The notes under the pieces were generated by a model. That model searched no databases. It saw only the letters and a list, made by a program, of their open reading frames with translations, and was not told where the DNA came from. Shown piece after piece: positions 3,783 through 41,429 of a stretch of 64,000 nt of DNA. How positions within the stretch are numbered: the stretch's first letter is position 1; every line of letters begins with the position of its first letter. The translations under genes and the position numbers were made by a program. Origin of the DNA: Actinostola sp. cb2023 (taxonomy: Eukaryota > Cnidaria > Anthozoa > Actiniaria > Actinostolidae); the NCBI GenBank assembly GCA_033675265.1, contig JAUJYZ010001187.1, positions 456,001-520,000 on the forward strand. Reading direction: 5' to 3'.

Positions 3783-5021
3783 TTAACTAAATAAATGGAA
3801 TAAAAAGCATCGTAACTTATGAATTCTAGGTATGTAACTAGATTGACCCCAGATTATGCTGCAATAATCAATCATAGGTTGAAAAACAGTTTTATAATAT
3901 AATAACCTAATATTAAGTGGTAGATAGGCTTTTATCCTGCGTAATAATGCTATATTTTTACTAAGTGATGAGGCTATATTATCAATATGTATTTTCCACG
4001 ATAAGTGTTTGTCGATGGTAACTCCAAGGAGCTTTTCACTGTCAACATTCTCAAGCAATGTTCCATTGTGCTGTACTTGAAGGTCAATTGAGCCAATCTT
4101 AGCTGCCTTCTGGTAGGTGCAAATAGTCATACACTTTGTTTTGCTTTCATTCACAACCATGTCATTTGAGGAGCACCATAAGTGAACATCATGCATAGCT
4201 GATGAGAGGTTTCTATCAAGTTCATTGGTGGAGTTTCCAGAAGTGTGCAGGGTAGAGTCGTCGGCATACATATCAATTTCTACTTTGGTACACAAAGGGA
4301 GATCATTTACGAACAAAATGAACAGTAAGGGTCCCAGTATACTGCCTTGAGGTACACCAGATGATATAGGTGCGAGGGATGATATTTGGTCCTTGACTCG
4401 TACACAATGGCTCCTACCTGCTAGGTAAGAATGCATCCATTTCAGTAGTGTAGAATCAAAATGGTAAAGTTCCAGTTCAGCTAGGAGTATGTCAATGTTT
4501 ATCATATCAAAGGCTTTGCGGAAATCGACAAAGACGAGACCATTTAGGAGGCCATTTTCAATGTTATTTAGACAGGTATCAATAAGTTTTGCAAGGGCAG
4601 TTTCGCATGAGTGGTTTGTATGGAATCCAGATTGTGCTGTATATAGTAGATTGTATGTTGATATATAAGCACTGATACATTTATGTATATGGCGTTCCAA
4701 CAGTTTGCTAACAATACAGAGAATAGATATGGGTCTGTGGTTGTTCTTATCACTATGGCTACCAGATTTGTGCACAGGAGTGATCCTTGCGGTCTTCCAT
4801 AGAGTTGGGAAATTACCGGTGGAGATACTTCTATTAAAAATAGAAGTTAGAGGGTTTGCGATGACAGGAGCTGACAGCTTAAGGATTTTTGAGCTTAGTC
4901 CATCTAGGCCAGTAGATTTGTGAGGATCAAGTTCAGCAAGTGATTTTAAAACATAGTTACAGTTAATAGGAGGTATCGTAAGAACGGCATCATCAGATAA
5001 GTTCGCTGAAGTCAGGAGCAT
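3783..5021 (-). pseudogene. LINE reverse transcriptase domain
   Basis: A 412-codon frame contains the ordered reverse transcriptase blocks: DPHKSTGLDGLSSKILK, the palm start FVDFRKAFDMINIDIL, the SSGVPQGSILGPLLFILFV block, and the catalytic MYADDSTLHTSG. The YADD box with both aspartates is intact. The C-terminal ISRPHKLR-like region found in many CR1-type elements appears as YIPRIHKLRCFLF. A frame change of about 100 bases separates this domain from the upstream endonuclease, which would be in the same protein in a functional element. It would perform target-primed reverse transcription. Confidence 0.88.
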
Positions 5022-5120
5022 GGGTACTTACTGGTAGATATTGTTGAACAATTGTTGAGAAGTAGTTATTTAAACTTTCACATATGTCGGCTGCACTTGT
5101 TAGACTTGTATTGCCTTCTT

Positions 5121-6243
5121 TCAGGGTAGTAGGTGTTGATTTAGTTTCTTTAGGAGTCGATTAAGATGTTTCCATAACTTGGATGAGTCACCTTTACCAT
5201 TTGTAATGCACAATTGGTAGTAAGTTTGCTTTGCTTTTCTTATTAATGAAACACATTGGTTACGAGTGGATTTATATTGTGTAAAGTCTTTAGTTGCTTT
5301 GCAGTGGTCCCTTATTCGCATACACTGAATAATTCCATCAGTCATCCATTCTGGTTGCTGGATTCTTTTGACCCTTTTAGATTTTAAAGGCAAGTGCTTG
5401 TCAATTACACCTTGGAAAAGTTTATACCAGATGTCTAGACTATCATCAATGTCATTTGAGCTATCAATTTCGCTCCATGGACAATGTTTTAAATCTTCAA
5501 GGAAGTTGTCTTTATCAAAGTTTTTGAAACATCTGTACTTGATACTGGTGTGGGAGTATTTAGTTCCAAAGGAGTCTTTAAACACCACACAGGTTGGAAA
5601 GTGGTCACTCAGGCCTATCTTAGGGACTTTAACTCTTCTTACTTTAGCGGAAGAGGAAGTAAACATGTGATCAATTAGTGTGGAGGAATTTGATGTTATT
5701 CTTGTAGGTTCCTTTATAAGTTGATGCAATTGAAAGTTCTCAGTTATCTCAAGCCAGGATTTGCTATGAGGACTAGTTACCATTAAATCAATGTTAAAGT
5801 CTCCCATAATAGTAAGTTCATAGCCCTCTATATAAGCATTGGTAATTTGGGATTCAAATTTTTCCAGCCATAATGGTACGTCATAATCTGGATTTCGATA
5901 AGCAGTACACAGCAAGTGCGCAGGGCGTTTCGATGGACAAAGTTGGATCCAAACTGATTCAATATCTTGAGACTCTAGATCTTTTGTTCTGCAGTATGGG
6001 GTATCTTTGTGAATATAGACTATAATACCGCCACCTCCTTGTTTATTGACTGGTAATTTCTTTTCGGCACGATCCATTCTTTCTATTTTGTATCCTGGAA
6101 TTTTCACGTGTGAATTTTTGAAGTTGTCGTTCAGCCAAGACTCAGTTATACCAAGAATATGGGTTTCTTTACCCGGATTATTTAGTAAAAATCTTAGTTC
6201 GTCGAGTTTAGTATTGTTTTGATGTGGAGTACTGCAATACTGC
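5121..6243 (-). pseudogene. LINE apurinic/apyrimidinic-type endonuclease domain
   Basis: The frame carries the endonuclease/exonuclease/phosphatase fold motifs seen in APE-type LINEs: ILGITESWLND, a Gly-rich GGGGIIVYI stretch, TIMGDFNIDL with catalytic Asp and Asn, and the terminal LSDHFP with the conserved Asp-His pair. It lies upstream of the reverse transcriptase. The apparent N-terminus beyond 6247 (reading MTHVPHFTW) is not LINE sequence but the inverted repeat of the inserted DNA transposon. The true upstream LINE sequence resumes at 13748. Confidence 0.87.
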
Positions 6244-6247
6244 TTAA

Positions 6248-7113
6248 GAGTTAATTTTTCTGCAAACCAGGTGAAATGTGGCACATGAGTCAAAAATCAA
6301 GGTGTCTGATATTTTGTCCAGGGATACACTATTATAAGCCTATTCGCCTGGTATATTTATTTTATTCAAATTACTTTTTAATTTCTTGAAAAAAAATTAA
6401 AACCGTCACTGCCGATTTTGTCAAAAAATGTTTGAAATTAGAACGATTTTCAGGTCCAAGAAAACCATAGTTCTCGAATTCTCAACAGGACGCTAGACGC
6501 AAATAAGTTCAGATATTGAATTACGAGATACTTGCGAGTAATTCAAGCCTAAAAATAGCATTATAAATGCAGTATTAAATTTCTGAGGATTAACGAAAAA
6601 TGGCTTATATTTCGGTGTCTGTAAATTTCAATTTGGAGCACTTTTTCAAGAGCTCAGTTCTATATCCGGTATAACTCAGATTTACACAAAAATACATTTA
6701 CAACATTTAGAAGTGATGTTCTTGGCCATAGCATAAAAATTAGTTTGGTACTTTTCATTGATCGAAAGAAAGAACGCGACTCATTTTGTGAAAATAGCAC
6801 TTCCTACTTGTAAACCGGCCCGCGACAATCAATTTCCCGCACCTGGAAATAATGGTCCAGACATTGGACTAAAACGTCACATGTTACTTCAAACTGGGCA
6901 AAAGACTCAAAAATAGATCTTTTTCAGCATACCTTTCAAATCCAGTGGCTAACGATTGATTTATGGGCTATTTCCAATCAGTTTCCTATCAGAGGTCACG
7001 GAGCGATGATGCCTGAACTCGCTACAACTCGCTTGAATATCACTTCTCTTGCCATGTTATCGCTCTATTCAGTATTAATACTGCCCTAAAACAGGACATG
7101 TTCCTTTTCCTTG
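6248..7113. repeat. Left terminal inverted repeat of the 7.5-kb transposon
   Basis: It is the reverse complement of 12866-13743 with a few substitutions and small indels. It starts GAGTTAATTTTTCTGCAAAC next to TTAA. No convincing gene lies in it; 7114-7705, between the repeat and the last exon, is A+T-rich without a recognisable feature. Confidence 0.88.
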
Positions 7114-7705: not shown

Positions 7706-10700
7706 TTATTTCTGGCAGGTACAGCCGTCGTAAAGCAACATGATCTTCTGGATGTAAGGCTGTTTACGTCTTATTGTGACGTCACTGGTATTTATATCAA
7801 AAGACGTGCAGATGTCCTTTAATAATGGAATGGACAGGTTCTTCAGCTTAGAGCTCGAGCACATATCACAAAGATTGTAAATATCATACGTGATAGGATG
7901 TGCCAGCCCTACTTCACGCGCAGCACTAGCTACGAGGTGTTCCATGTGAGCTTCATTGGTGGCACTTTGTATGTCATCAAATAGAACTTCATCGTCTCCG
8001 CCGAGGTGTTTCTTTGATGCGAGACGAGAGAAATAACTTGCAACTTGTGTTGGAGTTAGGAAGTCATCCCTTGTAAAGAGGGGATTGCCATCGGCATCTC
8101 TAGCTGTCATCATTGCCCGCGCCACAGATGGAAGATCAGCTTTCTGGCCTGATTGCTCGCCAAATCTAAATTTGGCGGCAAGATAGCTTATCTGACTTGA
8201 CGTAAATCTGACTCTTCGAGAGGCTCCAGATTTGAGAGCCCATCCCAATGACAAGGAGGAATCGCAATGTGAGGAGGCTCGCATTGTGGCGTGAGTGTCG
8301 AGGTGTGGAACTCCTGCACGTTGTCCCTCGAGAGTTTCTGCATAGGCGAGAGCAGCCCTGTCTAATAGTGTTTCTCGTTCAAGTGCTCTTTGATGTTTGC
8401 CACAATCTAAGTGACGCTGCATTGAAGAGTGCCTTAGGAAGGTTTGAGTGCATCCTTCTTCGGGACATGCGAAGATTGCGTCTGCAGCATTTCCACTTAT
8501 ATCAGCAACTTCACTTTCATCCTCGTGTTTTTCTTGTCCGTCGTTTCCTCGTTGTAAGATGGGATTTCGTCTTTGTTTGACAGATACAAAACTGTTTGGC
8601 TGTGTGGAAGTGCAAGTGATGGCTGACAGCTCTGATGGAGATGGGGACTGTAGTTTATTAGTCGGGATCAACTTTCCAGGGCCGATATCAAATGCCCTCC
8701 TCCAGACGCGAATTCCATCGACTTCATACTTGATGTTGTTTAGGAGACTGACGCCTTCTATCTTTAATGTTGCCATCTTAGATGCTGTCACAGATTCACA
8801 GAGGGTGACGTTCACTGCTGGTACTCCACCTGCTGACATAATTGCGTCTTTCATTTGGACTTGTGTCTCGATGTCGTTTCCAGAGTTTAAGTGAATTCGC
8901 ATATGCGATTTGATTGTTACGGCTTTTCTATCACACGAGCCTTTTCCGCCTTGTGGATCGGAAAAGTCAAGACGCTTGATTGTGACCTCATCGTGAAGGC
9001 CAAGTACTCTGGCACATGTGATGGTTGCCCCACAGTGATAACAGCCTGCATTATCTTGACGGTAAAATACAGATGTCAGGCTAGGCATGGTTATCTTGAG
9101 TTGTTTTATAACATCTGCCATCACTGCGATCACAGCGCAGCTATCTTGGCTGCACGATGGAAATATGTGAACAAAAGTGAGCATCTCATGTTCCAAGCCA
9201 TTCTTCCTGGTAGCTACGGTAACATGCCATGGAATGCCACGTTTCCCAAACCAGTCGGTCTGGCTCTCTTTGAATTTTCTGGGCAAGTACTTCATTGCCC
9301 AGTCTTGTACCAGCAGAACAGATGACGCATCTAAAGACTCCAATACCTCTACACGAGCAGCATCCTGGTTAACGGAGCGCAGAAGATGTGATTTCCACGC
9401 CAAGATCGTGTTTTTTGCTTGTTTCACTCTGTAAGAAAGTTGTTCCCTCAACACAGACGACATGTTGTCATTTTGTGAAGCCAGCTCAGCCTCGATTTCT
9501 TGAATCACTGCACTTAGCATTTCACAGCGGTCACATATGTCAGTGTGTTCATGATCGCAACTAGACTGAAACGCAGGCTCCTTTGGATCGCTGAGGGCGT
9601 AGTCTCTGCAGTGATCTGCTACAGTTGACCTTTTAGACACATGTACCTGTGGCACAAATCAAGAGTACTTATTCAGTATCATTGGATACATTTGTAGCGT
9701 CATAGATTCCCCGGCCTTTAGTAATTTTATTTGTTTGGGAGCGCTGTTTTGTAATACAAATTCCATTATATGGCCGATTATTTTAGACCACAAACTAGCT
9801 ATATCAAGAAAATATTCCTACTCGGCCGTCTTCAAACACTATACCACAACATTTCCTAATTAGTACCATTGACACTCAGCTCATTTCATTATCGTTGAAG
9901 TGATCATGATTGGTGGTGATACAAAGAAAATATTGGTGTAATAAATCATACCTTATAGTCGCTTTTCAGGTAGCGCTTGCTTTCACGAAGTCGAAGTTGT
10001 TGTCTCTTGGCCCATCCCATTCCTTGTCCGATATCTCCAAGAGTTTCCGTAACTTCTAACAGGTCCTCAAACGCTTCAGTCCCTGAAGAACTTATATAAT
10101 CAAGTCCTTGTAACGACTTCCTTACAGACGCTGCACAAGTTTTCAGAATGCGCAGCAATGTACTACGCCCTATGGCCGTGAATCCTGACTCTTCACAATA
10201 AGATGTATACTGCTTTACTATTCTTTCAGGTAATAGTGTTCGTATGACGTTAGGAACTTTGATGGTTTCTTTTGTTGACAGAGTGATTGTTCGCTCCCCG
10301 AATGGCAGATCTTGTATAACATGAGAGCTTGTAATAAACGCGATGAAATGATCGATTTGGGTTGTAGGAACTCTCATTCTAGGAGTGGGAGTTGACTGTA
10401 TGGGCACTCCCCTGCCATGTATTAGGCAATGGCGTTTAGCTTCAGTATATCGATGTTTGGTTAAATCTGGGATCCAGCGCTGCAGTCGTTTGAATGATAG
10501 TTTGTCGGCCATCACTGAGAGGATTTGCCGTCTTGTTTCCCAGCAACTGGCAGCATTGTAGCACTCAGCAAGAGCTTCAATTAGTGTTTGATCAAGGGCT
10601 GTATCATCGTTAGAATCATCGTCCGTAGATAAAGAGAGATGGATACTTTTGGAAGAACACATGCCCTGGAAAAGTGGCGCAGAATCGTTTGGTGCGATAT

Positions 10701-12399
10701 CCTGGAGAACAGCTGTCACACCTTGCCCAGCCTTGCGTATGTAATAACGCCTTGTTCTCTCACTTGCACTTTCCCAGGGAGTGATGAGCTGTGATCGCAT
10801 AGGAGATAGATCTCGAGAACGTAAATACTTATTTAGTGCTTCTGCAGGTTCTTGATTTGTGTCGCTGATGTCGTCAAAACTGACTTGACAAGAAGAGTCG
10901 TCACTATATATACTTGGGGGAATATAAAAACTTCCTTCTGGCGTTATGGGAGTATCTGATGTACAAGCGCTCTGTAAAGTGAAAACAACCCTGTGACTGA
11001 TAGTCTTCTATATCAAATGTGCAGAGTAATGCATGTGGGATAGGAGTGCATGGGTACCATTAACTTAATGAATACCTCCATTAAACGACCACTATTTAAT
11101 GTACCAATCATGCCGGTCGATTAATGGAGGTTCGACTGTATTTAAAATACAACTATATTAATATCCTTAAAAAATACTTAATCAGGTAAACGATTTGGCA
11201 TGTGCGCAGTAGTGGTTGTGAAATGACGTTGGATGAAATTGGTATCCTTACAAACGGTAAACCATCTACCTACCAAGGAAATATTTTCTGCCAGTTGTGA
11301 TATTGTGGATGGGATCTCTATGGCATTCACTATGAGGTTCCGTGGTCAGCATTGGTTCAGCACCAATGCTGGATCTGCAACTACAGCATACCCCTGTTGA
11401 GAAAGAAAATAATACTCCTAATCTACTTTTGGTATATTTTCAAATCAAGAGTCGGAATAAAAGAAATTGTAATTACAAAACAATCCCAGAGAAAAACAAT
11501 GATTAAAACAATTGCGCACACACCTTTGTCTAATTATTTATAAATTTGGCCTCAATTGTGTAGGCCTCGTCCACACTAATCCGGATAAATTGGCCACTGA
11601 AAACTGGGGCGGATCTCGGATTTTGAGGTGGGGGGTTCACCCCACAAGGAAACTGGTTGCGCGCGCGGATTTTTTTGTATTAAACATCGTATTATTGAAT
11701 TGTTCCTGGGCAGCAACAATCCGCCATAGGAAAACGGTAACTGGTTGAAAACGCTCTCTAGAGTGGATAAATTTGAAAACGCCAGCTGGGCGGTTTAGCC
11801 GTGGACGATAACGGAACTACAGTGGAACCTGGTTAATACGGACACCATCGGTCGGGACGAGACGCAGTGTCTGTATTAACCGGGTGTTCGTAAGGCCACT
11901 GTATTTGTTAACGCTGTATTGCTGGCGTCGCGACGATCATTAGCGGTCTCTTTTGCCGCTTAATTAGTGTTTTAGTTCCCATCCAAACGGATAAATTTGA
12001 AAACGCATTTAATTGTTTATGGTTATCTTATTAACGATTTAGTGTGGGCGGATGCGTTTATAAGACGAATTTACCAGTAAATCAGATCACCAAAAATAAA
12101 GGATAACAAACAAACCACATACCTGAGCCAGCCGCAACAAATATTCCAGTGCGGTGAAGGATTGTCCTGGAAAGGGCTTTGCTGATGCCACGGTCAGCCT
12201 TTCGCGGTTTACCTCCCTTGGCATGCTTACACAGATCCGCTGGGACACGACAACGCTGCGTTCCTCTGCGCCATCCAATGCCGAGAGAATAACGATGCGA
12301 GGGACAAACTGTCAGCTCTGAGATATCAGACGGCAAAGAAAAAATCGATGCACGTGCTAATATGAGTTCCACCTCCGTGTCAATATCGATTATCCCCAC
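7706..12399 (-). CDS. Multi-exon transposase-like protein with DDE-type motifs and a C2H2 zinc finger
   Basis: Exons on the minus strand are 12399(or upstream)-12123, 11393-about 11265, 10971-9952 and 9646-7706. Exon 1 (CPSHRYSLGIGWRRG ... KADRGI) ends in phase 1 and joins exon 2 (a CxxC-containing segment) cleanly; exons 3 and 4 also join in phase 0. The exon 2 to 3 junction could not be phased by eye, so a small exon may be missing. Exon 4 (about 645 codons) has likely catalytic acidic residues in VLLVQDWAMKYLP, FYRQDNAGCYH and LDFSDPQGGKGSCDRK, and a finger CPEEGCTQTFLRHSSMQRH. The role in cutting and joining the element ends is inferred from position between long inverted repeats. The superfamily is unassigned. 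No stop codon interrupts exons 3-4, so it may be functional. Confidence 0.72.
11066..12062. repeat. Small MITE-like insertions within introns of the transposase gene
   Basis: Three palindromic pieces are visible. One is at about 11066-11140 (CCTCCATTAA ... TTAATGGAGG). One is at 11566-12050, with related ends CGTCCACACTAATCCGGATAA and a reversed TTAGTGTGGGCGGA. Inside it is a third at about 11819-11905 (ACAGTGGAACCTGGTTAATAC against GTATTAACCGGG ... CCACTGT). They resemble non-autonomous DNA elements. The exon at about 11265-11393 lies between the first two. Confidence 0.45.
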
Positions 12400-19185: not shown

Positions 19186-19341
19186 CTACAACTACAAAAA
19201 GCTTAATTACAGGTCGTACAAGAGTCAGAGATGGAACATTAAGAGAACACGTCGGGCTAGAAAGTACGGTGGCTCATAGGGGACATTGAGAAAACAAAAT
19301 GGTGCTATTGATCCAAAGTTTTCGATCCAAATTTATAACTA

Positions 19342-19633
19342 CGGATCCAACGTCATAACTACGGATCCAAAGTCAGAAGTATGGATCCAAAGTCATAACT
19401 ACGGATCCAAAGTCAGAAGTATGGATCCAAAGTCATAACTACGGATCCAAAGTCATAACTACGGATCCAAAGTCAGAAGTATGGATCCAAAGTCATAACT
19501 ACGGATCCAATGTCAGAAGTATGGATCCAAAGTCATAACTACGGATCCAAAGTCAGAAGTATGGATCCAAAGTCATAACTACGGATCCAAAGTCAGAAGT
19601 ATGGATCCAAAGTCATAACTACGGATCCAAAGT
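19342..19633. repeat. Left subterminal iteron array, 20-bp unit
   Basis: About 15 copies of GGATCCAAAGTCATAACTAC alternate mostly with GGATCCAAAGTCAGAAGTAT, so the array has a 40-bp higher-order period. It sits immediately inside the left terminal repeat and about 40 bp upstream of the start codon of the HECT gene. Confidence 0.92.
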
Positions 19634-19669
19634 TGGTACCTAGGCCCGCTCGGTCGAGCACATTGTAAA

Positions 19670-22600
19670 ATGGCGGCGAGCAGAAGTGTTCAAGAGGTAA
19701 GCGAAGTTTTTAAAGATTTTTGATATTATTGTCATATTCTATACCATTAAATCTTAAGAATATAATCCTTGGAGCAATTTGATGCTACAAGAAGGCCAGC
19801 ATTACAATCATAAGTCAATTAAAACTGTCTTCTAACGGAGTTTTATTGATGATGTACATTGTAGGTTTGTGAGTTTCTGAAACGCCGAGACGTTGAAGAG
19901 GAGGTTATATCCACTTTTGAAAGGGAAAAGGTAAGAATGCATACAATTATACCTCAGTGTTATACCTCAGTGTTATACCTCAGTGTTATACCTCAGTGTT
20001 ATACCTCAGTGTTTATACCTCAGTGTTATACCTCAGTGTTAAGTTATACCTCAGTGTTATACCTCAGTGTTATGTTATACCTCAGTGTTATACCTCAGTG
20101 TTATACCTCAGTGTTATACCTCAGTGTTAAGTTATACCTCAGTGTTATACCTCAGTGTTATACCTCAGTGTTAAGTTATACCTCGGTGTTATACCTCAGT
20201 GTTATACCTCAGTGTTAGTTATACCTCAGTGTTATACCTCAGTGTTATACCTCAGTGTTATACCTCAGTGTTATACCTCAGTGTTAAGTTATACCTCAGT
20301 GTTATACCTCAGTGTTATATACCTCAGTGTTATACCTCAGTGTTATACCTCAGTGTTATACCTCAGTGTTAAGTTATACCTCAGTGTTATACCTCAGTGT
20401 TATGTTATACCTCAGTGTTATACCTCAGTGTTATACCTCAGTGTTATACCTCAGTGTTAAGTTATACCTCAGTGTTATACCTCAGTGTTATACCTCAGTG
20501 TTAAGTTATACCTCGGTGTTATACCTCAGTGTTATACCTCAGTGTTAGTTATACCTCAGTGTTATACCTCAGTGTTATACCTCAGTGTTATACCTCAGTG
20601 TTATACCTCAGTGTTATACCTCAGTGTTAAGTTATACCTCAGTGTTATACCTCAGTGTTATATACCTCAGTGTTATACCTCAGTGTTATACCTCAGTGTT
20701 ATACCTCAGTGTTAAGTTATACCTCAGTGTTATACCTCAGTGTTATACCTCAGTGTTAGTTATACCTCAGTGTTAGTTATACCTCAGTGTTATACCTCAG
20801 TGTTATACCTCAGTGTTAAGTTATACCTCAGTGTTATACCTCAGTGTTATACCTCAGTGTTATACCTCAGTGTTATACCTCAGTGTTATACCTCAGTGTT
20901 AAGTTATACCTCAGTGTTATACCTCAGTGTAACATTCAGTCTTGCTTATTTGTGCCCTGTCTGACAACACACATGAATAATACAGAAGCATTATTCAGTA
21001 AGTAACATGTTTGATTCTTTATACTTAATATAGTTTGATGGTGAAGCTGTTCGATACTGCGCTGACACATCCTTGAAAGAACTTGGCTTGACCGCTCAGG
21101 GGGACAGACTTGCACTAAAGGCCTTTTGTGATGAGAAACCAGCCGATGAACGAAAACTCACTTTATTGAAGCAGTTGAAACAGAGATGGAATAGTACTAA
21201 AAAAGTCGACGGATCGAACCCGAAACCTAAAAACAAAGAGGTTAAAACCAGGCGTGTTATGCTAGGTTGGATGAGATATGATAAAAAACCTGGTAGATAT
21301 GTAAGAGTTTCTCTCACAAAAGGAGGTGGAACAAGAAAAATGGACTTACCTATAAACTTTTCAAAAAATGATGTCATAGAATATGCAAAAAAGGTTTTCT
21401 TCCCAAGTAATGAGGATCTCCAAGGAAATTTCAGCTTTGACCTGGCCAATTTTAAGCAATCAAAAGTAGATACCCTTACAGACACAGATGGGGAAGTGCA
21501 TGAATTTTCAGTTGGTAAATACTTTGAAGTCAGCAAAACTCATCAAATTAATTTATATTTGATGACAAGAGAACTACATGTATGTGACACTGATGATGAG
21601 GATGATTTTGAACAATCTGTATTTGATACAAACACCTCTACTGAGAAGTCCCCAGTTCATACTACACGTCTGAGTAAGAACTCTTGCACAGCAGTTACTG
21701 TGGATACTTTGCCATCATCTGGAGGACACCAACATAATTTATCACTTATTGGTGACACTGATGATGAGGATGATTTTCACATGTTGAAATCTGTATCTGA
21801 TACAAACACTTCTACTGGAACTCCCCCAGTTCATACCACATATCTGAGTAACAACACTTCTGCAAGAGTCACTGTAAATACTCCTCCATCATCTGGAAGA
21901 CACCAAAAGAAATCATCACCTATTGGTTCTTCATACGAAAGAGAAATGATAAAACATGAGCAAGATGCAGAATATCAAGCAAGTTTAAAGATAGACCAGG
22001 AAAATCAACAGAAGAAGTTGACAAGTGAAGTCAGTTCTGCAAATCAGAAAGCTCTACAAGCTGCACGTCTTCAGAGAGTTCCTCCCGAACCTGCTCTTGC
22101 ATATATTAAACAGCTTAAAGTATACATAAGACATCCATCGAGGGGCCTTGTATCACGTGCATTTCGTGAAGATGAGAAAATGATGTCTGTCTATGATTGG
22201 TGTGGATCATTAGAACCTGTTCCAGAGCACTTCAGCCTGTGCACATCACATCAAAAGATTGTTTTGCCTCAAGAGCCTATAATATCAGTCAAAGGAATAA
22301 TGCTATATGTTCACGTTCAAGAAGAACCTCAAGAGCTAGTTGGAAAAGACACAGAAGTCACATTCAAAGGTTTTGGATGGTCTGATGAACATGGAATTGA
22401 AGATGACACACTTCCACTTGCTGATAAAGAAATGTTGACACATACATTTACATGTACCTCTTCAGATTATTCCATTGAAAAAGTTCAAGAAACACTGCCC
22501 AAGAATATCATGGAGGTAGATCATACAAGGTATCTAAACTAACTGTACAATACTCATAAACTAATATAACAATATCAATATTTAATATAGTCATTCATAA

Positions 22601-24965
22601 GTGTTTTTGGGTGGGGCTAAAACTGGGATTTTACAGTATTGCGTTTGGCATTTAACCTTAACATTAATTAAATTAATGTCAATTTAACACACCTTTTATT
22701 TACTTTCATCTTTCAGTACTATCAGTGATGATGATGGGGAGGGATCTTCATCTTATCAACATTACTTACAAAGGGAAAGCAGTTTGAGTGCATCGGTAAG
22801 ATTAATTAAATATTTTTTTATGGACCTGTCTTAGCATAAAATCAAAAATCATTTTGCTACATGTCACTTTACAGTACCTACAGGTGAATTAATTTACTCT
22901 AGATTCCCAAAGTCCTTTGCGGTCGTCAGCTTCTTGCTTGTTGCTTTTGGCACAGACAACGATATTATTTTGGAATAGGTGTTTATGAAAAATTCAAAGG
23001 GATTAGTCTCGCAACTAATCCTATATATTTATATATATAAAAGCTATTGATAAATACTAATATGATAGTAAAAAAGATGCACCAACTTGGAACAGTTTGT
23101 TCCTGCTCTCTTACATTAGCTTCAGCCTTTTATTTTCTTTTTAGCCTGGAATGCGCTTCAGACAATGGGTAAATGAGGTTTTTGAAGCAAGGTGCGAAAG
23201 TGAGGGTGGTAAGTATTCTTATTCTTATTACTGGTTGATTTCTTTAGTAGTAACAGTCTAAATACTACCTCTCGATGATGATTTATGCAAGTCAACAACC
23301 AACAGTCAATATAATACATTTGGACTAATCTTTGAAAACTTTGCTTATATTACTGGTGGGGTCGAAAAATAGATAAAAAAATAAAATGGCTGTTAAAAGA
23401 CCAGCTAAAAATACTCTAAATACTATCAAAAACAGACAAAGATCAGTCCAAGTTTATTACAAACTAATTTTACGAGTTTTCTCGATACATAGACGTCATT
23501 GGCTAATGACCCATTTCAAACCTTCTGGGATTTATAAGTTTTTGTTCACTACATTTCCATACCAATACTATGCGGTTGACATGGAAATGTTGCGAACAAA
23601 AACTTCTATTTATAAGGTTTGAAATGGGTACAACACTGCATTAGCCTTTAGGTCTATTTACTGTAAAACTTATACAAAACTGTTTGGGCTGCCTGTGGTA
23701 TGCGTTTTCTTAGTGTTTTAAAACATGAGATCACATTCTCATCCCCAGACCCTTCTCAGCTTTCTAACAAAAATCGGAATCTCTGGGTCTTCCGGTTTGT
23801 CTCTTACCAGAGCCTTCAATTTTTCGTTAGAAAGCTGAGAAGGGTCTGGGTACGAGAATGATGAGATCATTGATCATTATTTTCCTTTGAAGAAAACAAC
23901 GATGATCCTGAAGATTCAGATGAGATCACTGAAGTGAAACAAGTAACAGTCAAGCGAAGCACTATTCTTCATGATGCTCTGGAGCTATACTGTGATCCCC
24001 ACATTGTTGAGTGTAAGCTAAATGTCACATTTAAAGGAGAACAAGGGATTGACTTTGGTGGTGTGACTGAAGACTTCTTTTGTTCCTTTTGGGAGGCCGC
24101 TTTTGCAGAGTACTTTGAGGGAGATGTGGTAAAGATTCCTTTGGCAACTCCAATAAAAATGTCTGCTATTAGCAATTCCATTTTACCAGCACTTGGGCGC
24201 ATTCTAGAACACGGTTGGAGACTTACTCGAAAAATTCCAGTAAGGTTTTGTGAAGCTAGTTTTATTGCTTTGGTGTATGGTGAGGAAGCAGTACCAAATC
24301 AAGTCCTAAAGAGATCTTTTCTCTGGTACATCAACCAGTTTGAAAGGGACATTCTTTGTTCTCTTCTAGAAGGTGAAAAGGTAGCCGATTATAAGAAAGA
24401 TGCAATATTTGGCCTTTACCAACGGTTTTCCATGCAGTGTTTGCCAGCCAAAACAGAAGAAGCATTAAAGGAGCACATTATCACAATGGCAAGGGCTGAA
24501 TTTGTCTTCAAGCCAATGTTTTTTCTATCAGCTATGAGGCGGGGTATTGGAGGAGATAATTTAAAGGCACTCCAGAAAGAACTTCCTATTGATAAGATAT
24601 CAGAATTGTATGATGAGCTCTCACCAACATGTGAAACGGTCTTGCAGAAATTAAAGAAAGGATCTGAAGACCTAAGGCTGGAAGAAGTACGGGTATTCAA
24701 CTTTTTAACCATTTATGTGGGAAGCATGGACAGCAACCTTCTTCGAAGATTTCTTCACTTTGTCACAGGGTCCACAGCAACCCCACGTAAGCCAGGCATC
24801 AAAGTCTGCTTCAATGGTGCACAAGGTCTGAGCCGTGTACCTTGTGCCTCAACCTGTAGTTCCACATTAACCATTTCTACAACATATGAAAGTTTTGCTG
24901 AATTCAAGAAAGAGTTTAACATGGTCCTTGGAAGTGATGAAGCATTTGAAATGAATGTGCCTTAA
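19670..24965 (+). CDS. SAM-like/UBX-like/HECT E3 ubiquitin ligase, transposon-borne, six exons
   Basis: Exons are 19670-19696, 19865-19930, 21034-22529, 22717-22795, 23145-23208 and 23893-24965. All junctions are GT-AG and in phase, and together they give exactly 935 codons including the stop. The N-terminus (EFLKRRDVEEEVISTFEREK then FDGEAVRYCADTSLKELGL) resembles a SAM-type helical domain. The middle is acidic and has two copies of a DTDDEDDF motif. Codons around 22090-22290 (IRHPSRGLVSRAF ... MSVYDWCGSLEPVPEHFSL) look like a UBX/ubiquitin-like fold. The last exon is a HECT catalytic region ending with VPCASTCSSTL, where the Cys fits the thioester Cys of HECT ligases. It should transfer ubiquitin to unknown substrates, presumably in the cytoplasm or nucleus. 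The second intron holds a 1-kb minisatellite. It has no stop codons or frameshifts. Confidence 0.82.
19942..20931 (+). repeat. Minisatellite of a 13-bp unit inside an intron of the HECT gene
   Basis: About 70 near-perfect copies of TTATACCTCAGTG fill most of the second intron. At intervals the unit is followed by extra AAG, G, AT or TG bases (TTAAG, TTAG, TTATG). The pattern of these spacers is repeated on a larger scale (for example 20037-20222 and 20367-20552), which indicates block duplications of about 330 bp. The reading frames through the array are by-products of the repeat. Confidence 0.95.
23508..23629. repeat. Palindromic MITE in a HECT-gene intron
   Basis: ACCCATTTCAAACCTT at the left is mirrored by AAGGTTTGAAATGGGT at the right, with GTTTTTGTTC/GAACAAAAAC inside. 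The whole unit could fold into one hairpin. Confidence 0.7.
23734..23861. repeat. Palindromic MITE in a HECT-gene intron
   Basis: CCAGACCCTTCTCAGCTTTC is mirrored by GAAAGCTGAGAAGGGTCTGG, leaving a central loop of about 50 bp. It ends about 30 bp before the acceptor of the last exon. Confidence 0.7.
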
Positions 24966-25020
24966 TCATCTCCTCATCATCACAAATATTCATTCGTTTT
25001 CAAACAATAGTCTAAACCAT

Positions 25021-25292
25021 TAGTGAACACTTCCACAAGTGATTTCTTTTTGACAACTTGTTGATTAATACTGCTAACCAATTAGATATCAGCACTTCAC
25101 TTTGATCAGTGTTTGTACATTGATGTAATGATGTACAAAACTCTGCCTATTGAAATATCAAAGTGAAATGCAGATACTGAGTATCTAATTGGTTAGAGGT
25201 ATTAATCAACTAAGGTGTGAAATCATATACTGTATATATGTAATAGTGTGAAATAGATGTCAAAAAGAAATCAAAAACTTGTGGAAGTGTTC
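25021..25292. repeat. MITE with long imperfect inverted repeats
   Basis: AACACTTCCACAAGT at the left is mirrored by ACTTGTGGAAGTGTT at the right, and the inner arms CTAACCAATTAGATA / TATCTAATTGGTTAG also pair. It lies in the 3' flank of the HECT gene. The rest of 24966-26265 shows no coding sequence. Confidence 0.7.
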
Positions 25293-25790
25293 ATGTTACA
25301 GTTTTAGGGTTGGCTTAATGTTCCTTTTACAAATATGCCCTCATTGCTGAGCTATGTTTCGATTTTAATGCATATGAGATTTATGCTAAAATATAAACAT
25401 GGGGCTCATTTTAATTAGTAACCCCTCAAACACGAATGAGGGACCAGATGTCAAGGCACAAGACAATATATACTGAAAAGAAAAATAATGTTAGTACGTG
25501 TTTTATGAAACATGTTACATTTCATAATATCATTACATTTGCTTGTCCAAAATGCAATTGAGGCAATTTCAGTTGTGCAGGTGCAATTCCTGGCATAAGT
25601 GGCCTGAGAAGTTATGGCTACAATGGGTTGAGTTTGACACATATCAAATTTTGATGTGTTAATGTTACAGTTGAGTTTGATAAAACATATTTATAGCTGT
25701 TTTCAAAAATTATGACTTCACCATCATAAATTGGAATAGTTGTTCAAATTTAGATTTGATCACTGTCTCTAATACTCGAGTTGTTTAGAC

Positions 25791-25988
25791 ACCGCTGTAC
25801 TCCTTGACAAAAGACGCGTTTGCTCAGGCTTAGCCTCAATCCAGAGAATAACCAGTGCCATTAAAAATGGTTTCTATTTTTGAATGTCAACACTTTTTCG
25901 CATTATTTGTGAATAATTAATTAATTAACACTGAATTGAGGCTAAGCCTGAGCAAATGCGTCTTTTGTCAAGGACAGCGGTCGTCGCT
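25791..25988. repeat. MITE with 45-bp inverted repeats
   Basis: TTGACAAAAGACGCGTTTGC and GCTCAGGCTTAGCCTCAAT at the left are mirrored at the right by ATTGAGGCTAAGCCTGAGC and GCAAATGCGTCTTTTGTCAA. The two arms differ at a few bases only. Confidence 0.75.
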
Positions 25989-26265
25989 TAACAACTCTAA
26001 ACTGGAGTATTTAATTTGTTGTGCATATTCCAGTGTCTACATGCAATACTACACTGTACCTCAATAAAAGTCGATACTCTTGCACCTGATATATTGACAT
26101 ACATTGGTATGGCTGTCGGTATGGCATTAAATTCTGAAAACAGCATTGACATGATTTAACTGTGATTGAAACTGTGATAAAATGCAATAATAAAACACCA
26201 AATTGAGTAAATTATTTCTTGAAATATTGATGACTGAAGCTGCTGATGTTCTGAAATGCTATAAG

Positions 26266-27477
26266 CTATTTACTTCTGAAACTAAAAGTTCTATATAGTG
26301 AAAATGCTTCACTTGGGGATTTTGGAGAGCCAAGGGCGTGGTCTTCCATAATAAGCCCTGCCAGTTCTGCAAATTCATTAGCACAAGTAACTGCAGAGTT
26401 TTTGTGCTTTTCAACTTCCTCCAAAATGTCTTCAATGTCACTCATATTTACTAAATGACCACAGTTTGTTGTCCCATTTAATTCTGGTAAGAAATACAAC
26501 ACATCTGGACGTCCTGGAGGAGTTTCCCTGTTTGAACAAGGTCGAATCCTATGGAGGTTCCAGTGAAGGACAACACGGTCCAGCTCTTGTTGGATCAATG
26601 GCAGATAACAGAACTTCAAACATTCCACGTGCAATGGTTCACTATCTGAATATAACCCTTGATCCCTCAGATCTTTAAAATAGTTCATCCACCAATTCAT
26701 TTCATTTTTTCGCAAAAAACTCCACCATGCTTCAATCCTTTGGTTCGAAACAGATCGTCCAAATAAAAAACTTTTATTGCCGGCAAAAGAATCAGTGTGA
26801 TCGTCTCTTAGGTATCTCTGAATACGAGCAATGTGTACATTTTCTGTCCCCTGGTCTCCTCGAATAACAGTTGCTGTACTACCATGAGAACGAATATAAT
26901 TAAGATAATATTTGGCAATTATATGAGGATCCTTATTTGACACGCCAACCTTGAGCCACAAAATGCGACGGCTGTAGCCGTCGATAGCTCCGTGTATGCA
27001 AAAGCCAAACGGCTTTATTTTATCATATCCGTCTATATGCCAGATGAAGTCTGGTCCTTTTGCATGATATTCTCGTCTCTTGAGCTTGTTTTTAGAACGC
27101 AACTCTACACCTTGGGGATCTAAAGCTTTTAATACGAGCCTCACCGTTTCTCTATCAACCCTTAAATCGTAGTCAACAATCAACCTTTGGTGCATAAGAC
27201 GGTAGCCAATAGAACATCCACTTCCCTCCAATTCACTCTCTATGGCTGATATAATATCACGCCCATCACTGTGAGCACATCTTCTTCTGAGGCCCAGACT
27301 ACGCAGGATTCGCTTTAAATGTCTTAAACTTATGAATATTCCATGCACAAGTCCAAGAAATGCAACAATTTCAGAATACCCTAGTCCAAGCTGAAAGTAA
27401 GCTTCAATTAGGCTGTACTTATCCTCCAATTGTGCTTGAAATGGAAGATATAAAAGTTCCCTTTCGTTGTCAGCCAT
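26266..27477 (-). CDS. rve/IS3-like DDE transposase of the iteron-bearing transposon
   Basis: An uninterrupted 403-codon frame encodes an integrase-core protein. An N-terminal helical region (residues 20-125) looks like a helix-turn-helix DNA-binding part. The catalytic core has D149 in FIWHIDGYDK, D208 in VIRGDQGTEN and E249 in SNQRIEAWWSFLRK, the acidic triad expected for integrase-fold enzymes, followed by a Trp-rich segment. The predicted role is cutting and joining the element ends. It starts about 70 bp from the right iteron array, as the HECT gene does at the left, so both genes read away from the arrays towards each other. It resembles eukaryotic elements grouped near IS3EU/Ginger, but I cannot decide the superfamily from sequence alone. 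Confidence 0.85.
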   Translation of the reverse strand: MADNERELLYLPFQAQLEDKYSLIEAYFQLGLGYSEIVAFLGLVHGIFISLRHLKRILRSLGLRRRCAHSDGRDIISAIESELEGSGCSIGYRLMHQRLIVDYDLRVDRETVRLVLKALDPQGVELRSKNKLKRREYHAKGPDFIWHIDGYDKIKPFGFCIHGAIDGYSRRILWLKVGVSNKDPHIIAKYYLNYIRSHGSTATVIRGDQGTENVHIARIQRYLRDDHTDSFAGNKSFLFGRSVSNQRIEAWWSFLRKNEMNWWMNYFKDLRDQGLYSDSEPLHVECLKFCYLPLIQQELDRVVLHWNLHRIRPCSNRETPPGRPDVLYFLPELNGTTNCGHLVNMSDIEDILEEVEKHKNSAVTCANEFAELAGLIMEDHALGSPKSPSEAFSLYRTFSFRSK

Positions 27478-27540
27478 CTTGCTATGCTACTTCAATGTGC
27501 CCGCGGTATCGCTTGGTCAGTTGGCCCTAGTTGTTTTTAG

Positions 27541-27960
27541 ATGACTTTGGATCCATACTTCTGACTTTGGATCCGTAGTTATGACTTTGGATCCATACTT
27601 CTGACTTTGGATCCGTAGTTATGACTTTGGATCCATACTTCTGACTTTGGATCCGTAGTTATGACTTTGGATCCATACTTCTGACTTTGGATCCGTAGTT
27701 ATGACTTTGGATCCATACTTCTGACTTTGGATCCGTAGTTATGACTTTGGATCCATACTTCTGACTTTGGATCCGTAGTTATGACTTTGGATCCATACTT
27801 CTGACTTTGGATCCGTAGTTATGACTTTGGATCCGTAGTTATGACTTTGGATCCATACTTCTGACTTTGGATCCGTAGTTATGACTTTGGATCCGTAGTT
27901 ATGACTTTGGATCCATACTTCTGACTTTGGATCCGTTTGGATCCGTAGTTATAAGTTTGG
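27541..27960. repeat. Right subterminal iteron array, 20-bp unit
   Basis: About 20 copies of the same unit as at 19342-19633, in the opposite orientation (ACTTTGGATCC). The two variants alternate here as well. The array is longer than the left one, so unit number is not conserved. Confidence 0.92.
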
Positions 27961-29655
27961 ATCGAAAACTTTGGATCAATAGCACCATTTTGTTTTCTCA
28001 ATGTCCCCTATGAGCCACCGTAAGAAAGAACTAAAAATGTTTCATTATATTCAGCCTAATAATAACTTCTACACTTTTAATCCAATCAAAATGAAACTTG
28101 ACATCGTGACAGTTTATGTCAATTCAAGAAATCGTGTCCCAAAGGATTTTTGATTTTATTGATTTTTGGCGGGAAAATAACGTTATGAACATGCCAACAA
28201 AAAAAATTTCATTCAGAACAACACTAATTTGATCATGCCATTCGAAAGAACATGTAAAAATAACACGGCGGGCCCGCGCGCTTCAAAAAACAGCACCCTA
28301 ACGTGTCGCCGGTGGCCATATTGGACGGGCGCATATTTTGGGAGTCTGGGAACGAATTTAACGAGTGCAAAACGACTTCTCTTTCGGAGCCTCGTGTGTC
28401 GATCGTGTTATTCCGAATAACAATCGGAAGACAGGAATATCCGAAGCTTGCCTTGATGTCCATTTTGGTTCCAAACTCGAAGGGTAAATATTGAAAAGCG
28501 ATTTTATATGATTGTCGTTTTCTCCAGGTTTTTGAAAATCTGAAGATTTTGATTTGAAGGGCATATTTTGACCCTTGGTAAATTTTCGCCGTGTTAATTA
28601 TTTTGTAAATGAAATAAACACATTTTGAATCCTCGATAGTTGTTTGAAATTGTTATCGTTTTAGTTTTTTGAATTTTGTTTTTGATTTTCTGTCATGAGC
28701 GGTTGTTTTTGGTCAATTTTCACTACTTTAACTGTAAGTTTCAACGCTACCGCGTTTACAAGTCACCACATTACGAAGATAATGAGTCATCGCTAATCAA
28801 AAACACTGTAATGGAAAAGTCTACGAGGCAAGAAGTAGAAAACAAAGAACACAAAAAGAGTTAGAAGGTAAATAAGCTTAATGGTAAGCTTAAATGAGGG
28901 AGATCCTTAATCTTTTTTTGTGGAAGAGGTATAAAAGAGCTATATAGTTATAGGTCTCATGTGCTGTTGGTTGTGACATTTCGAAATCAGCTTAGTAAGT
29001 AAGCTTAAATTTAAATTTCTGAATTAACATTATTTATTTCCATTTCCCTCCTGTAACTTTAGCCATACTGCAGTTTAGGCCATGTTGTACCCCAAACCAC
29101 ACCGAGGGAATGAATGTGTATTGATAAGGGTTATAATACTGATGAAAAACCTAAGCTTATCTTGTAAAGTAAAACTGTATACATGTACTGTGTACAATTA
29201 AAAATTGAACTGCACTGTACTGATTATTATTATAATATGTATATTCGATGTACTAGTAAGTTATGTACCATATGCCTGTGACAAATTATATTTTTATTGA
29301 AATAAAAGTAATTCTATTATATTGTCATCCCGTGTAAGCTTATATAAATGAGTTATTCAAAAATACAAATAAGGGCTGACATAACATAACTATTATTTCA
29401 CAGTGAAACTCTCTTCACACCATGAACACTTCTACTGCATGTGAGACCAATACTTAGCCTGGTTTATAACTAATAAATATTGTTTTAAATAATTCCACAG
29501 TAAAGTAAGGTAAAGTTTGATCTATTGGTGTCACCAATTATAGTTATTTGGTTACATGCAACTGCAGAAATATCAAATCAACTAGTATAAGTGTGACAAG
29601 TTTTCATATAAATAATGGTGACAGTAACTAACAAGTTATAACTGATAAGTTAACT

Positions 29656-29755
29656 GATTAATTATATTTAATTATGTACTCCATTTATGCTGTTATGATA
29701 CAAAAATAACAGCATAAATGGAGTACATTATAATAATTAAATATAATTAATCCAT
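29656..29755. repeat. Palindrome in the 4.1-kb element
   Basis: TGTACTCCATTTATGCTGTT-type sequence is mirrored by AACAGCATAAATGGAGTACA, flanked by the paired TAATTATATTTAATTA and TAATTAAATATAATTA. It probably forms a long hairpin. Confidence 0.7.
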
Positions 29756-29891
29756 ATAAAAATACCACTACATACAATACCTTGTGTACTATTTGCAGAA
29801 TATTTGCAGTTTAAATATAACAATAATTGTTATTTTGTTATTATACCAATCATTACAGTAGTCTGTGGATTTTCATTAGGACAAAAAGTCC

Positions 29892-30032
29892 CCAAACTAG
29901 AGTACAAACACTTATACCATGCAACATAAATATAATATTATTAGTAGTACTAAATACTGATATTTATATTCTCGTTTAATTAGTGCTATTTAGAACAAAA
30001 TGCTGTATGCATATAGTGTTTGTACTCTATTA
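29892..30032. repeat. MITE-like palindrome
   Basis: AGAGTACAAACACT at the left is mirrored by AGTGTTTGTACTCT at the right. The inner TTAGTAGTACTAAAT and TTAGTGCTATTTAGAAC resemble the related copies at 32812, 42058 and 43300. The flanking stretches 28500-29650 and 30040-31300 show no recognisable gene. Confidence 0.55.
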
Positions 30033-31310
30033 TTATAAATAAATAAATAAATACATAAAATAAATACTGTCCATGTCTTGTTTTAGGATTGTGTATTCTA
30101 TAAATTTACTCATATGATAACACTATTTGAGGCCATTTTCAAATATTCTGATTATACCAGTTGGTCATTTTACCTTTCCCAATATTTATTTACCTTTTAA
30201 TCAGTACTGATTAGCAATTCGTCTAACTTGTTCAGTTGATTGTAAGCTAGAGTGTTAGTCCACAGACAGTGACATCAAATTCAAGATTCATTGCAGACAT
30301 GCATGACGGCAACTTACAGTTACAGTCTATACAATAGCATTGACTTAAATATACATGACTGGGGTAAAAGAAGTATATTATAGGAGTGTGACACAAGCAA
30401 AGTATGACTAACTTATAATGATAAGTCTGTTGTTACATACTATATGTTTCAGGTTGAAATGGAAGTATTCAAATACTATGGTAGTAACACTTGCTTGCGT
30501 CACACAGTGAGCCCTATACACTCATAATGAAACTTGTCATCACACTCTAAAATGTATTTAACTTTATTGAAAGTTGAGAATGTTTGTACATGTAAGTGCA
30601 GATGAATCACCTGAACTCAGAATTTGAAAACCATCAACAAAGACTGAAGGGTACTGTAGTACCCAATAATAGTATTATAATTATTATTGTACTATTGCGT
30701 TCATTCCATCTGTGTGCATGTACATGTACCAAGTGTCTCCTCCCTAAAACGACACATTGCCATACTACTCTTCTACTCATTCCAACAATAAATGCCTAAT
30801 TAGGGCATTATTGCTGTGCCTGCTAATCTTATAATTTTAATTTTAACCACCACCACTATTTAATCATAGTCAAAAACATAATGTTGAATGTTGTCGAAAA
30901 CAACAAACAATAACATATATATCATCACATGTATCATCACTCAGTTGCAGAACATAGACCAATAATTTTTATTGAATTCAACAAAAAACTCCAATGTATT
31001 AATTAATAAATGATCTTAAAATTATATAAGCTTATTTTCAAAGATCAAACAAGTTTGTACACTCAAGTTCTTGACGTTAAGGACCTACAGTACCTAAAAG
31101 AAAAACAATACATAAAATTGTAGTTAAAAAAATCACTGTTATTGTTTAATACTGTACAGCATTAAGTTTTTATAAATGTAGTGTCATTTCATTTGCTAGA
31201 TTTACCGTGAAGAGCAAAATATATTTAACGATGAGTTAAATCTTACAACATGAAACCCCTAAAATTACTGTAGGGCATAAATAAAGAGGAGATATTTCAG
31301 AGAAACTTAC

Positions 31311-31465
31311 CGTCTATTAAATTGAGTGTTCTTCATGGAAGTACCGAAGTATATTTCACGATCGATAGCAGAAGTCTGTTGCTTTTTCCTTAACATAATA
31401 CACCATGGAGGCCTATTTCTTTCCCAACCATATCCAACAACAAACTCAATTAACTGTTTCACCAT
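31311..31465 (-). CDS. Possible short first exon in the 4.1-kb element
   Basis: From an ATG at 31465 a 51-codon frame runs to a GTAAGT-type donor at 31309-31310. It encodes VVGYGWERNRPPWCIMLRKK and a basic tail. No downstream exon or family was recognised, so it may be chance. It is the only coding-like piece I could find in this element. Confidence 0.22.
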
Positions 31466-31645
31466 TCTTCACCAAAGAAATATTTTACTCGTTCATTTTC
31501 CCGTCAATTTCGCTGAACAAATTGCTCTAAGACCTCACCGCATGTTTATACACGACGCCATTTTGTTTACATTTATGCGCTAAACCGCTGGCCAATTTGT
31601 CTGGCGAACGTGACGTTTTATCGAGTGTCTGGGCCCGCCGTGTAA

Positions 31646-31791
31646 AGTTATTACCGTAAACATATCTCAGATATCGTCATTCAATCCAGAGATATGAAAT
31701 TTTGAAATTTTAAAAATGTTTCTAAAAATAGCACAAAATCTCTGGATTGAATGACGATATCTGAGATATGTTTTCTGTAATAACTTTATTT
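31646..31791. repeat. Palindromic MITE nested in the right repeat of the 4.1-kb element
   Basis: CATATCTCAGATATCGTCAT is mirrored by ATGACGATATCTGAGATATG, with AATCCAGAGAT/ATCTCTGGATT inside. The AAAGTTATTAC / GTAATAACTTT flanks are also paired. Confidence 0.75.
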
Positions 31792-32204
31792 TTACATGTT
31801 CTTTCGAATGCCATGATCAAATTAGTGTTGTTCTGAATGAAATTTTTTTTGTTGGCATGTTCATAACGTTATTTTCCCGCCAAAAATCAATAAAATGAAA
31901 AATCCTTGTTGTTCTGAATGACATTTTTTTTGTTGGCGTGCTCATGACGTTATTTTCCCGCCAAAAATCGATAAAATCAAAAATCCTTTGGGACACGATT
32001 TCTTAAATTGACATAAACTGTCACGATGCCAAGTTTCATTTTGATTGGATTAAAAGTGTAGAAGTTATTATTAGGCTGAATATAATGAAACATTTTTAGT
32101 TCTTTCTAGCCCGACGTGAAGTTTCTTGATCACTGTCGCTAGAGCAGTCCATGCTCGATCAGGCGGACTAACACTGAGCTGAACGGACAGTGATACGCAT
32201 AATT

Positions 32205-40076: not shown

Positions 40077-40345
40077 TGATTGGCAGATACGTTTTTACAC
40101 TCTTTTTACTCGATCGGCTCTCGTTACAAACCACCAACCTTCCTCTCATGCGCAACACCGCTGGACGGCTCAATAGGGACTTTAAGACTCGCCGACTACC
40201 GACTACGACTACGGATGGACGTGACTTTAACGTGTCTGGGGTACTGGGTTCTAGTACGAAGTCACGGCGCGAAATTTGAAACATTAAGATTCGACCGCCA
40301 CGGTATCGACTACGTGATCAGTCTACAACATTTTAACTTTCGAAA

Positions 40346-41429
40346 ATGTCATTTGAAGATGTAAGAAATGCTTTGATTTTTGAATTTGCAGAAGGCGTAC
40401 TAAGTGATGAAGAGTTTTTAATTCTATACGAGTATTATCAGTCCGACAATCCTGCTTATCCTTACTGGGAATATGACGCATTTTGTCTCGATAGCCTCGA
40501 TTCTAGCGAGTGCAAGGCAGAATTTAGAGTGGAAAAAGAAGACATCCCACATCTAGCCATGTCACTTGGAGTTCCAAATAAATTTAAATGCAGCCAAGGC
40601 ACAGTTTGTAGTGGTTTAGAGGGACTCTGCTTACTCTTGAAGCGTTTAGCTTACCCTTGTAGATACAGTGACCTTATTCACAGATTTGGGAGACCTGTAC
40701 CAGAGCTTTGTATGCTGACTAACGTTGTTCTCGACTGGGTGTATGATACTCATGGACATCGATTGACATCCTGGAACCAGCCTTTCCTTTCTCCTTTGTG
40801 TCTGGAACAATATTCTCAAACAATAAGAAGAAATGGAAGTCCACTTACTAATTGCTTTGGTTTCATTGATGGAACCGTGCGTCAAATATCACGTCCTGGA
40901 CAAAATCAAAGAGTAGTTTATAATGGCCACAAAAGAGTTCACAGCCTCAAATTTCAGTCATTGGCTATTCCAAATGGTCTCATTGCTAATCTGTTTGGTC
41001 CAATTGAGGGGCGTCGCCATGATGCTGGAATGCTTGCCGTTTCAAATTTATTGAATGCACTTCAAAGGATTGCACACGACAGAGCTGGAAACCCTCTTTG
41101 TATTTATGGAGATATGGCCTACCCTCTACGCCCTCAGCTCATGTGTCCCTACCGACCAACTGACTACCCTATACTTACTCCAGACATGCAGGCATTTAAC
41201 AGGGCAATGAGTGAATTACGTGTGTCTGTTGAGTGGCTATTTGGAGATGTTTTCAAACTATTTCAAATTCATTGATTATAAGAAGAATCTGAAACTAGGG
41301 ATGAGCTCTGTTGGAAAGCAATACATGGTCAGTGCCCTTTTGAGAAATTGCCTCACCTGCTTGTATGGAAACAGTACATCTACATTCTTTGATTTAGAGC
41401 CTCCAACCATTAATAACTACTTTGCATGA
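40346..41429 (+). pseudogene. Harbinger transposase (DDE superfamily), one frameshift
   Basis: From the ATG at 40346 the frame encodes a Harbinger nuclease: CFGFIDGTVRQISRPG (first Asp), LFGPIEGRRHDAGML, IYGDMAYPLRPQL (second Asp) and MSELRVSVEWLFGDVF (Glu). At about 41260 one extra base shifts the frame; the proper C-terminus continues in the next frame as YFKFIDYKKNLKLG and ends at 41429. The N-terminal 310 residues with all catalytic residues are intact, but the last 55 are lost. In intact elements this nuclease works with the Myb-like partner encoded opposite. Confidence 0.87.

Follow-up and report, generated by a model that had tools for sequence, protein, structure and literature searches.

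Does the genome of the sea anemone Actinostola sp. cb2023 contain a transposon that encodes its own ubiquitin ligase, and what could such a ligase do for the element? The question is raised by a stretch of 64,000 nucleotides (hereafter the window), which contains a DDE transposase gene and a gene with a HECT domain. An earlier note on this DNA had assigned both genes to a single transposon with iteron-bearing ends and limits at 19247–32116. The two genes and the iteron-bearing ends that they share are borne out by our analysis, but the outer boundaries are not: the region consists of two nested elements, and both genes sit within the inner one (19265–28022).

The inner, two-gene element has a length of 8,758 bp and inverted ends of the form TACGG..CCGTA, which were delimited by aligning its inverted arms in the window. 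The alignment comprises 369 bases with a single 10-base gap; the initial 67 bases are identical, and the arm on each side starts with TACGGTGGCTCATAGGGGACATTGAG. The left arm, with its terminal repeat (19265..19633, plus strand), contains 15 iterons of 20 bp (19343–19633, plus strand), and the right arm, whose terminal repeat ends with CCGTA and whose extent rests also on the iteron count (27544..28022, minus strand), contains 20 iterons of 20 bp (27544–27934, minus strand). When up to one mismatch is allowed, the iteron GGATCCAAAGT has 39 matches in the window versus 1.3 expected, and 37 of them fall inside the two inverted arrays. The element is flanked by a 6-bp target-site duplication (AGAAAG) at 19259..19264 and 28023..28028 (locus L023).

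The outer element (19248–32118) has separate inverted ends with arms (CACGTCGGGCTAGAAAG...) of at least 210 bp, which start with CACGTCGGGC, and would measure about 4.1 kb once positions 19265–28028 are subtracted; a clear target duplication was not seen at its ends. If its left flank is rejoined with a single copy of AGAAAG, the resulting sequence matches the opposite arm over 210 bases without a gap, which indicates that the HECT-bearing element inserted into the left arm of the outer element.

The transposase (403 aa; 26266..27477, minus strand) is encoded in a single open frame, in agreement with the intact gene that had been claimed, and it shares the iteron-bearing ends with the HECT gene. 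It matches the Pfam family rva_4 (E = 5.8e-34) and has the catalytic residues D, D, and E at spacings of 58 and 40 residues; the triad is kept in all 29 transposase loci compared and is invariant across the 18 rows of the alignment. The two genes are convergent (tail to tail), with their stop codons 1.3 kb apart. Transposons of the IS3EU/GingerRoot type are described as having TA..TA ends, 6-bp target duplications, and an integrase-like DDE transposase (PMC10045372, Kojima and Bao 2023), and fungal IS3EU elements have TAYGG..CCRTA ends (PMC12730594). Ends of the form TACGG..CCGTA occur both in the window family and in a second family described below (L076); target duplications are 6 bp in eight of nine two-ended copies of the window family (5 bp in the ninth) and also 6 bp in L076, and the transposase is integrase-like with a DDD/E motif (rva_4; conserved D, D, E). 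The element is a recently active DNA transposon that, judged by its ends, duplication, and DDE transposase, fits the IS3EU superfamily. It has the type of ends, the duplication length, and the type of transposase in common with the published IS3EU/GingerRoot elements, but the sections covered of that account make no mention of a HECT ligase (PMC10045372).

The HECT gene is located on the plus strand. Its six exons have GT..AG borders and join in phase to 934 residues plus a stop, which agrees with the 935-codon gene originally proposed. According to the gene model, exon 1 (19670..19696) holds the start codon and the beginning of a SAM domain and is followed by exon 2 (19865..19930); alignments and a profile place the remaining SAM domain, a GGGTR region, a coiled coil, and a UBX domain in exon 3 (21034..22529). 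Exons 4 (22717..22795) and 5 (23145..23208) precede exon 6 (23893..24965), which contains the HECT domain (also located by Pfam and profile) and the stop codon. Intron 2 harbors a minisatellite of TTATACCTCAGTG-like units (19950–20930), whose length varies among copies.

Of the SAM/UBX/HECT make-up that had been proposed for the protein, HECT (34.3 bits, cut-off 23.9, E = 2.7e-8) and SAM_2 (22.3 bits, cut-off 20.5, E = 1.5e-4, residues 6–59) score above their Pfam cut-offs. The UBX domain stays below its own (16.2 bits, cut-off 21, E = 0.012), yet the profile of its segment matches FAF1 (see below). The context of the HECT cysteine is kept, as the earlier note had stated: the catalytic residue (alignment column C321; 24855–24857 in exon 6, plus strand) is a cysteine in all 21 HECT exons compared. 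The HECT fold, for which a search with profile tools had been suggested, is recovered in a comparison of the HECT profile with HUWE1 (E = 3.9e-16). A predicted structure of a relative (P0002) matches the HECT domain of NEDD4 in Foldseek (E = 5.6e-13); both the NEDD4 and HUWE1 HECT domains are matched, with TM-scores by target of at most 0.50. The mean pLDDT of this model is 65, and blocks of its HECT part (residues 501–830) reach 69–97. The likeness to ligases of the NEDD4/HUWE1 type lies in the HECT fold and the catalytic cysteine; identity to the listed solved HECT domains is only 12–20% and, unlike those ligases, the one described here is transposon-encoded.

The segment preceding the HECT domain has the layout of a FAF1-type adaptor, a coiled coil followed by a UBX domain (21925–22527, plus strand, within exon 3). 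A five-row profile (window, C1379, C44, C1292, and C751) matches FAF1 across both parts (E = 1.4e-12), and the segment is present in all five loci examined. Most of this match is contributed by the coiled coil, because FAF1 chains without it score only 0.18–0.21 against the same profile. The arginine of the FPR loop, which we take to be the p97 contact of FAF1-type UBX domains, is absent from all five aligned rows, and we therefore term the segment FAF1-like instead of assigning it to the FAF1 family. The N-terminal GGGTR region is common to four rows of the alignment and has no convincing match in the PDB (best E-value 0.37). From its N- to its C-terminus, the predicted ubiquitin ligase comprises a SAM domain, the GGGTR region, the FAF1-like coiled coil with its UBX domain, and the HECT domain. 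A coiled coil–UBX fragment of FAF1 alone stimulates the disassembly of ubiquitylated CMG by p97-UFD1-NPL4 (PMC9377798), and UBXN-3/FAF1 works in chromatin-associated degradation, where it acts on chromatin-bound complexes (PMC4743000). The transposon-encoded segment resembles these p97 adaptors in its coiled coil and UBX but differs in being fused to SAM and HECT domains and in the FPR-loop arginine, which is not kept.

The end pattern of the window family has 25 matches in the 424-Mb genome, and 15 stretches around shared ends were fetched for comparison. Nine elements are two-ended, eight with a 6-bp and one with a 5-bp duplication. Whether both genes travel together, a test that the earlier note had proposed, can be answered in the affirmative: the four long copies (window, C498, C1192, and C1442, the last with one end found) contain both genes, and the six short two-ended copies (1.0–2.9 kb) contain neither; a transposase-only copy was not encountered among the 15 stretches. 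In five stretches (L012, L013, L017, L020, and L021), the end has no recognised partner and there is no gene match; in the case of L017, about 8 kb adjoins the end, and we count the absence of a gene match there against the reading favored below. Substitutions between the long copies amount to only 0.03–0.06% across 6.4 kb, which points to very recent movement. The copies are also separated by four to eight indels, which exceed the substitutions in number, suggesting that some of the frameshifts in C498, C1192, and C1442 may be assembly errors; only the window copy is free of frame-breaking differences in both genes. C498 (L009) and C1383 (L020) have an identical left flank beside a copy, so that C1383 may represent the other haplotype of C498. 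Products of such HECT genes bear the annotation of ordinary hypothetical proteins in Actinostola. Two of them, P0001 and P0123, stem from contigs with copies of the window element (C1442 and C498, respectively); P0002, likewise annotated, is encoded on C751 beside an IS3EU transposase.

The association of the two genes extends far beyond the window family. In six-frame searches of the genome, 103 of 1030 transposase candidates and 114 of 172 HECT-exon candidates were scored, so that all counts are lower bounds. For at least 46 of the 103 scored transposases, a HECT match lies no more than 10 kb away, compared with about 0.55 pairs expected by chance. Forty-four of these pairs are convergent and two divergent; 40 pairs, all of them convergent, are separated by 2.4 kb or less. 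The frequency of pairing decreases with the identity of the transposase to that of the window, from 4/4 (≥90%) and 22/25 (55–89%) to 13/24 (50–54%), 4/7 (46–49%), and 3/43 (below 46%), so that the transposases divide into one group with HECT and another largely without it, with the proviso that distant HECT exons may have been missed. In the second IS3EU group (transposases below 46% identity), 40 of 43 loci lack a HECT match over this 10-kb range. In total, 57 of the 103 scored transposases are unpaired within 10 kb, a number that we also count against the favored reading and that indicates that IS3EU elements can do without a HECT gene. Conversely, 64 of the 114 HECT matches are more than 10 kb away from any scored transposase match.

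A complete member of a second family (L076, on C1292) has a length of 8,763 bp, ends that are identical at 30 of 30 positions (TACGGAGCCCCCTAAGGGACATGCACACTT), the target duplication GTGCAT, and its own 24-bp iterons; its transposase and HECT are 55% and 29% identical to those of the window. The end pattern of this family has 16 matches, and its four long pairs (on C573, C1292, C1519, and C1567) all enclose a HECT match, three of them together with a scored transposase match. Inverted iteron arrays flank the transposase and HECT genes on both sides also on C1379. These data support the idea of a transposon in which a DDE transposase is accompanied by an intact HECT ligase gene; the pairing recurs across divergent families, including one with other ends. 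Chance insertion of unrelated neighbors, which the window alone could not exclude and for which the nested insertion provides a local precedent, is incompatible with 46 paired transposases versus roughly half a pair expected, with the position of HECT between inverted ends in all four long pairs of the second family, and with its presence in all four long copies of the first (one with a single end seen); we reject this explanation.

If the ligase were dedicated to its own transposase, the two genes should diverge in parallel. HECT exons were fetched for 20 loci, and 21 HECT exons were compared; a transposase was fetched for 18 of them (none for C831, C1482, and C23), and removal of the near-identical pairs C1468, C1300, C243, and C894 left 14 pairs. 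The transposase of C1407 is interrupted by a stop and entered the comparison with its open part only. Co-divergence of the ligase with its own transposase is not supported (Mantel r = 0.06, p = 0.25 over the 14 pairs), and the trees are in strong conflict. The transposases of C1379, C200, and C948 form one clade (100/99), whereas the corresponding HECT exons belong to two, one of C1379, C751, C44, and the window (100/100) and another of C200, C948, and C1452 (100/100). Similarly, the transposase of C1407 clusters with that of C808 (100/100), but its HECT exon with that of C501 (100/99). Four of five clade tests, for which the clades were named after the trees had been seen, reject the clade of the other gene. 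The exception is the grouping of C808 with C1067 in the transposase data (p = 0.125), and we therefore do not propose the transfer of a ligase into the distant C1067 lineage. The position of both genes between inverted arms was checked for C1379, C1292, and the window; the remaining loci in the trees were paired by adjacency. The conflict indicates that ligase genes have been exchanged between transposase lineages and have nevertheless been retained.

Estimates of selection on the HECT exons are restricted by saturation at synonymous sites, which affects 201 of 210 pairs; in the two pairs suitable for an estimate, dN/dS is 0.13 (C501/C243) and 0.46 (C44/C1468, with few changes). Among the transposases, dN/dS is 0.09–0.125 at dS values of 1.1–1.7 and 0.09–0.67 for close pairs; a value of 3.0 at a dS of 0.004 is noise. 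The small number of HECT pairs with an estimate and the 64 of 114 HECT matches without a scored transposase nearby, some of which may be host genes, would agree with a captured host gene that is a mere passenger and adds nothing to transposition. We consider this improbable, because the HECT gene is retained together with transposases that are 39–61% identical to that of the window, the cysteine is kept in all 21 exons where it was examined, and one ligase type is replaced by another instead of being lost. The ligase probably plays a part in the life cycle of these elements.

From the sequence, we infer possible functions that the FAF1-like segment renders more specific. The ligase would attach ubiquitin to DNA-bound proteins, and p97-UFD1-NPL4, called by the FAF1-like segment, would pull the tagged proteins off. 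We see an even chance that the ligase works in this manner, tagging DNA-bound proteins and passing them to p97, with a host factor met by all elements as the likeliest target; candidates are silencing chromatin and a repressor bound to the iterons. A host target is favored because the ligase is not confined to a single lineage of transposases, and the conflicting trees would fit a target that is common to many elements. The same machinery could instead be directed at the transposase–DNA complex of the element itself, which would be ubiquitylated after strand transfer and dismantled by p97, allowing host repair to be completed, as in the case of ClpX and MuA. Such a target would be in line with the integrase-like nature of the transposase and its DDE triad, with the requirement of Mu for transpososome remodelling by ClpX (PMC3562280), with the degradation of HIV-1 integrase by CRL2-VHL with VBP1, whose loss impairs post-integration expression (PMC9603942), and with the action of FAF1-type adaptors on chromatin-bound complexes (PMC4743000). 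The parallel to Mu concerns only the mode of action, namely an unfoldase that releases DNA from its stable complex with the transposase; MuA itself calls ClpX (PMC3562280), whereas here the host p97 would be called via an element-encoded ligase. A dedicated pair, however, would be expected to co-diverge, which HECT and transposase fail to do, and many IS3EU transposases in this genome have no HECT gene nearby, so that we regard this reading, the main alternative, as rather unlikely.

A ligase that lowers the transposase level could also restrain the copy number of the element and keep the host viable. The low abundance of the family, with 25 end matches and four long copies in 424 Mb, would be in agreement with such self-limitation, but the copies are nearly identical and must have multiplied recently, and selection for restraint on a single element would be weak if ligases move between elements; we give this explanation little credence. 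The removal of DNA-bound host proteins therefore remains the preferred reading. In its broadest form, which we consider conceivable rather than probable, an animal transposon lineage would encode an all-in-one tool, a HECT ligase joined to a p97-unfoldase adaptor, that strips DNA-bound host silencers or the transpososome of the element, and this module would be traded between elements and selected wherever it lands.

There is a precedent for cargo of this kind in fungi, where TET/JBP genes have been described as cargo of IS3EU elements; these genes pass from one transposon superfamily to another and have been proposed to oppose silencing (PMC12730594). The parallels are the superfamily, a second gene with a proposed role against silencing, and its mobility between transposon lineages; in the sections covered of that study, however, the fungal cargo is a TET/JBP dioxygenase together with an alpha-kinase (PMC12730594), whereas the elements described here reside in an animal and encode a ubiquitin ligase that includes a FAF1-like segment. 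If our reading is correct, transposons would exploit the ubiquitin–p97 route directly, providing a counterpart to the TET/JBP genes proposed to act against DNA methylation in fungal transposons and an example of a transposon-encoded ligase that is open to testing. It could also help to identify the host factor by which such elements are held in check in cnidarians, and some of the HECT genes that seem to belong to the host in animal genomes (such as P0001, P0123, and P0002) may stem from elements of this type.

A literature search for IS3EU together with HECT, with Repbase, preprints, and most subscription journals outside its scope, found no description of the combination; the same is true of a search for HECT domain, integrase core domain, and transposon, and wider search terms yielded nothing similar among the matches listed. 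No relatives were confirmed in IMG/VR. The transposase has 1218 matches, and the 120 listed include Acropora proteins at 56–58% identity; the 26 relatives of the HECT protein include LOC110254267 of Exaiptasia diaphana (71%) and a JGI protein (87%).

The window contains several other features. Two long open frames of 650 aa (7706–9658) and 353 aa (9946–11007), both on the minus strand, have no Pfam match at 0.001. A reverse-transcriptase element in two frames is located at 3783–6296 (minus strand), with an RVT_1 match (2.7e-29) in 3786–5027. Remnants of a broken Tc1-like transposase, also in two frames, are present at 54584–55709 (minus strand), with a weak match to HTH_Tnp_Tc3_2 below its cut-off. 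An open frame at 40337–41275 (plus strand) has a DDE_Tnp_4 domain (1.1e-18) and presumably encodes a PIF/Harbinger-like transposase.
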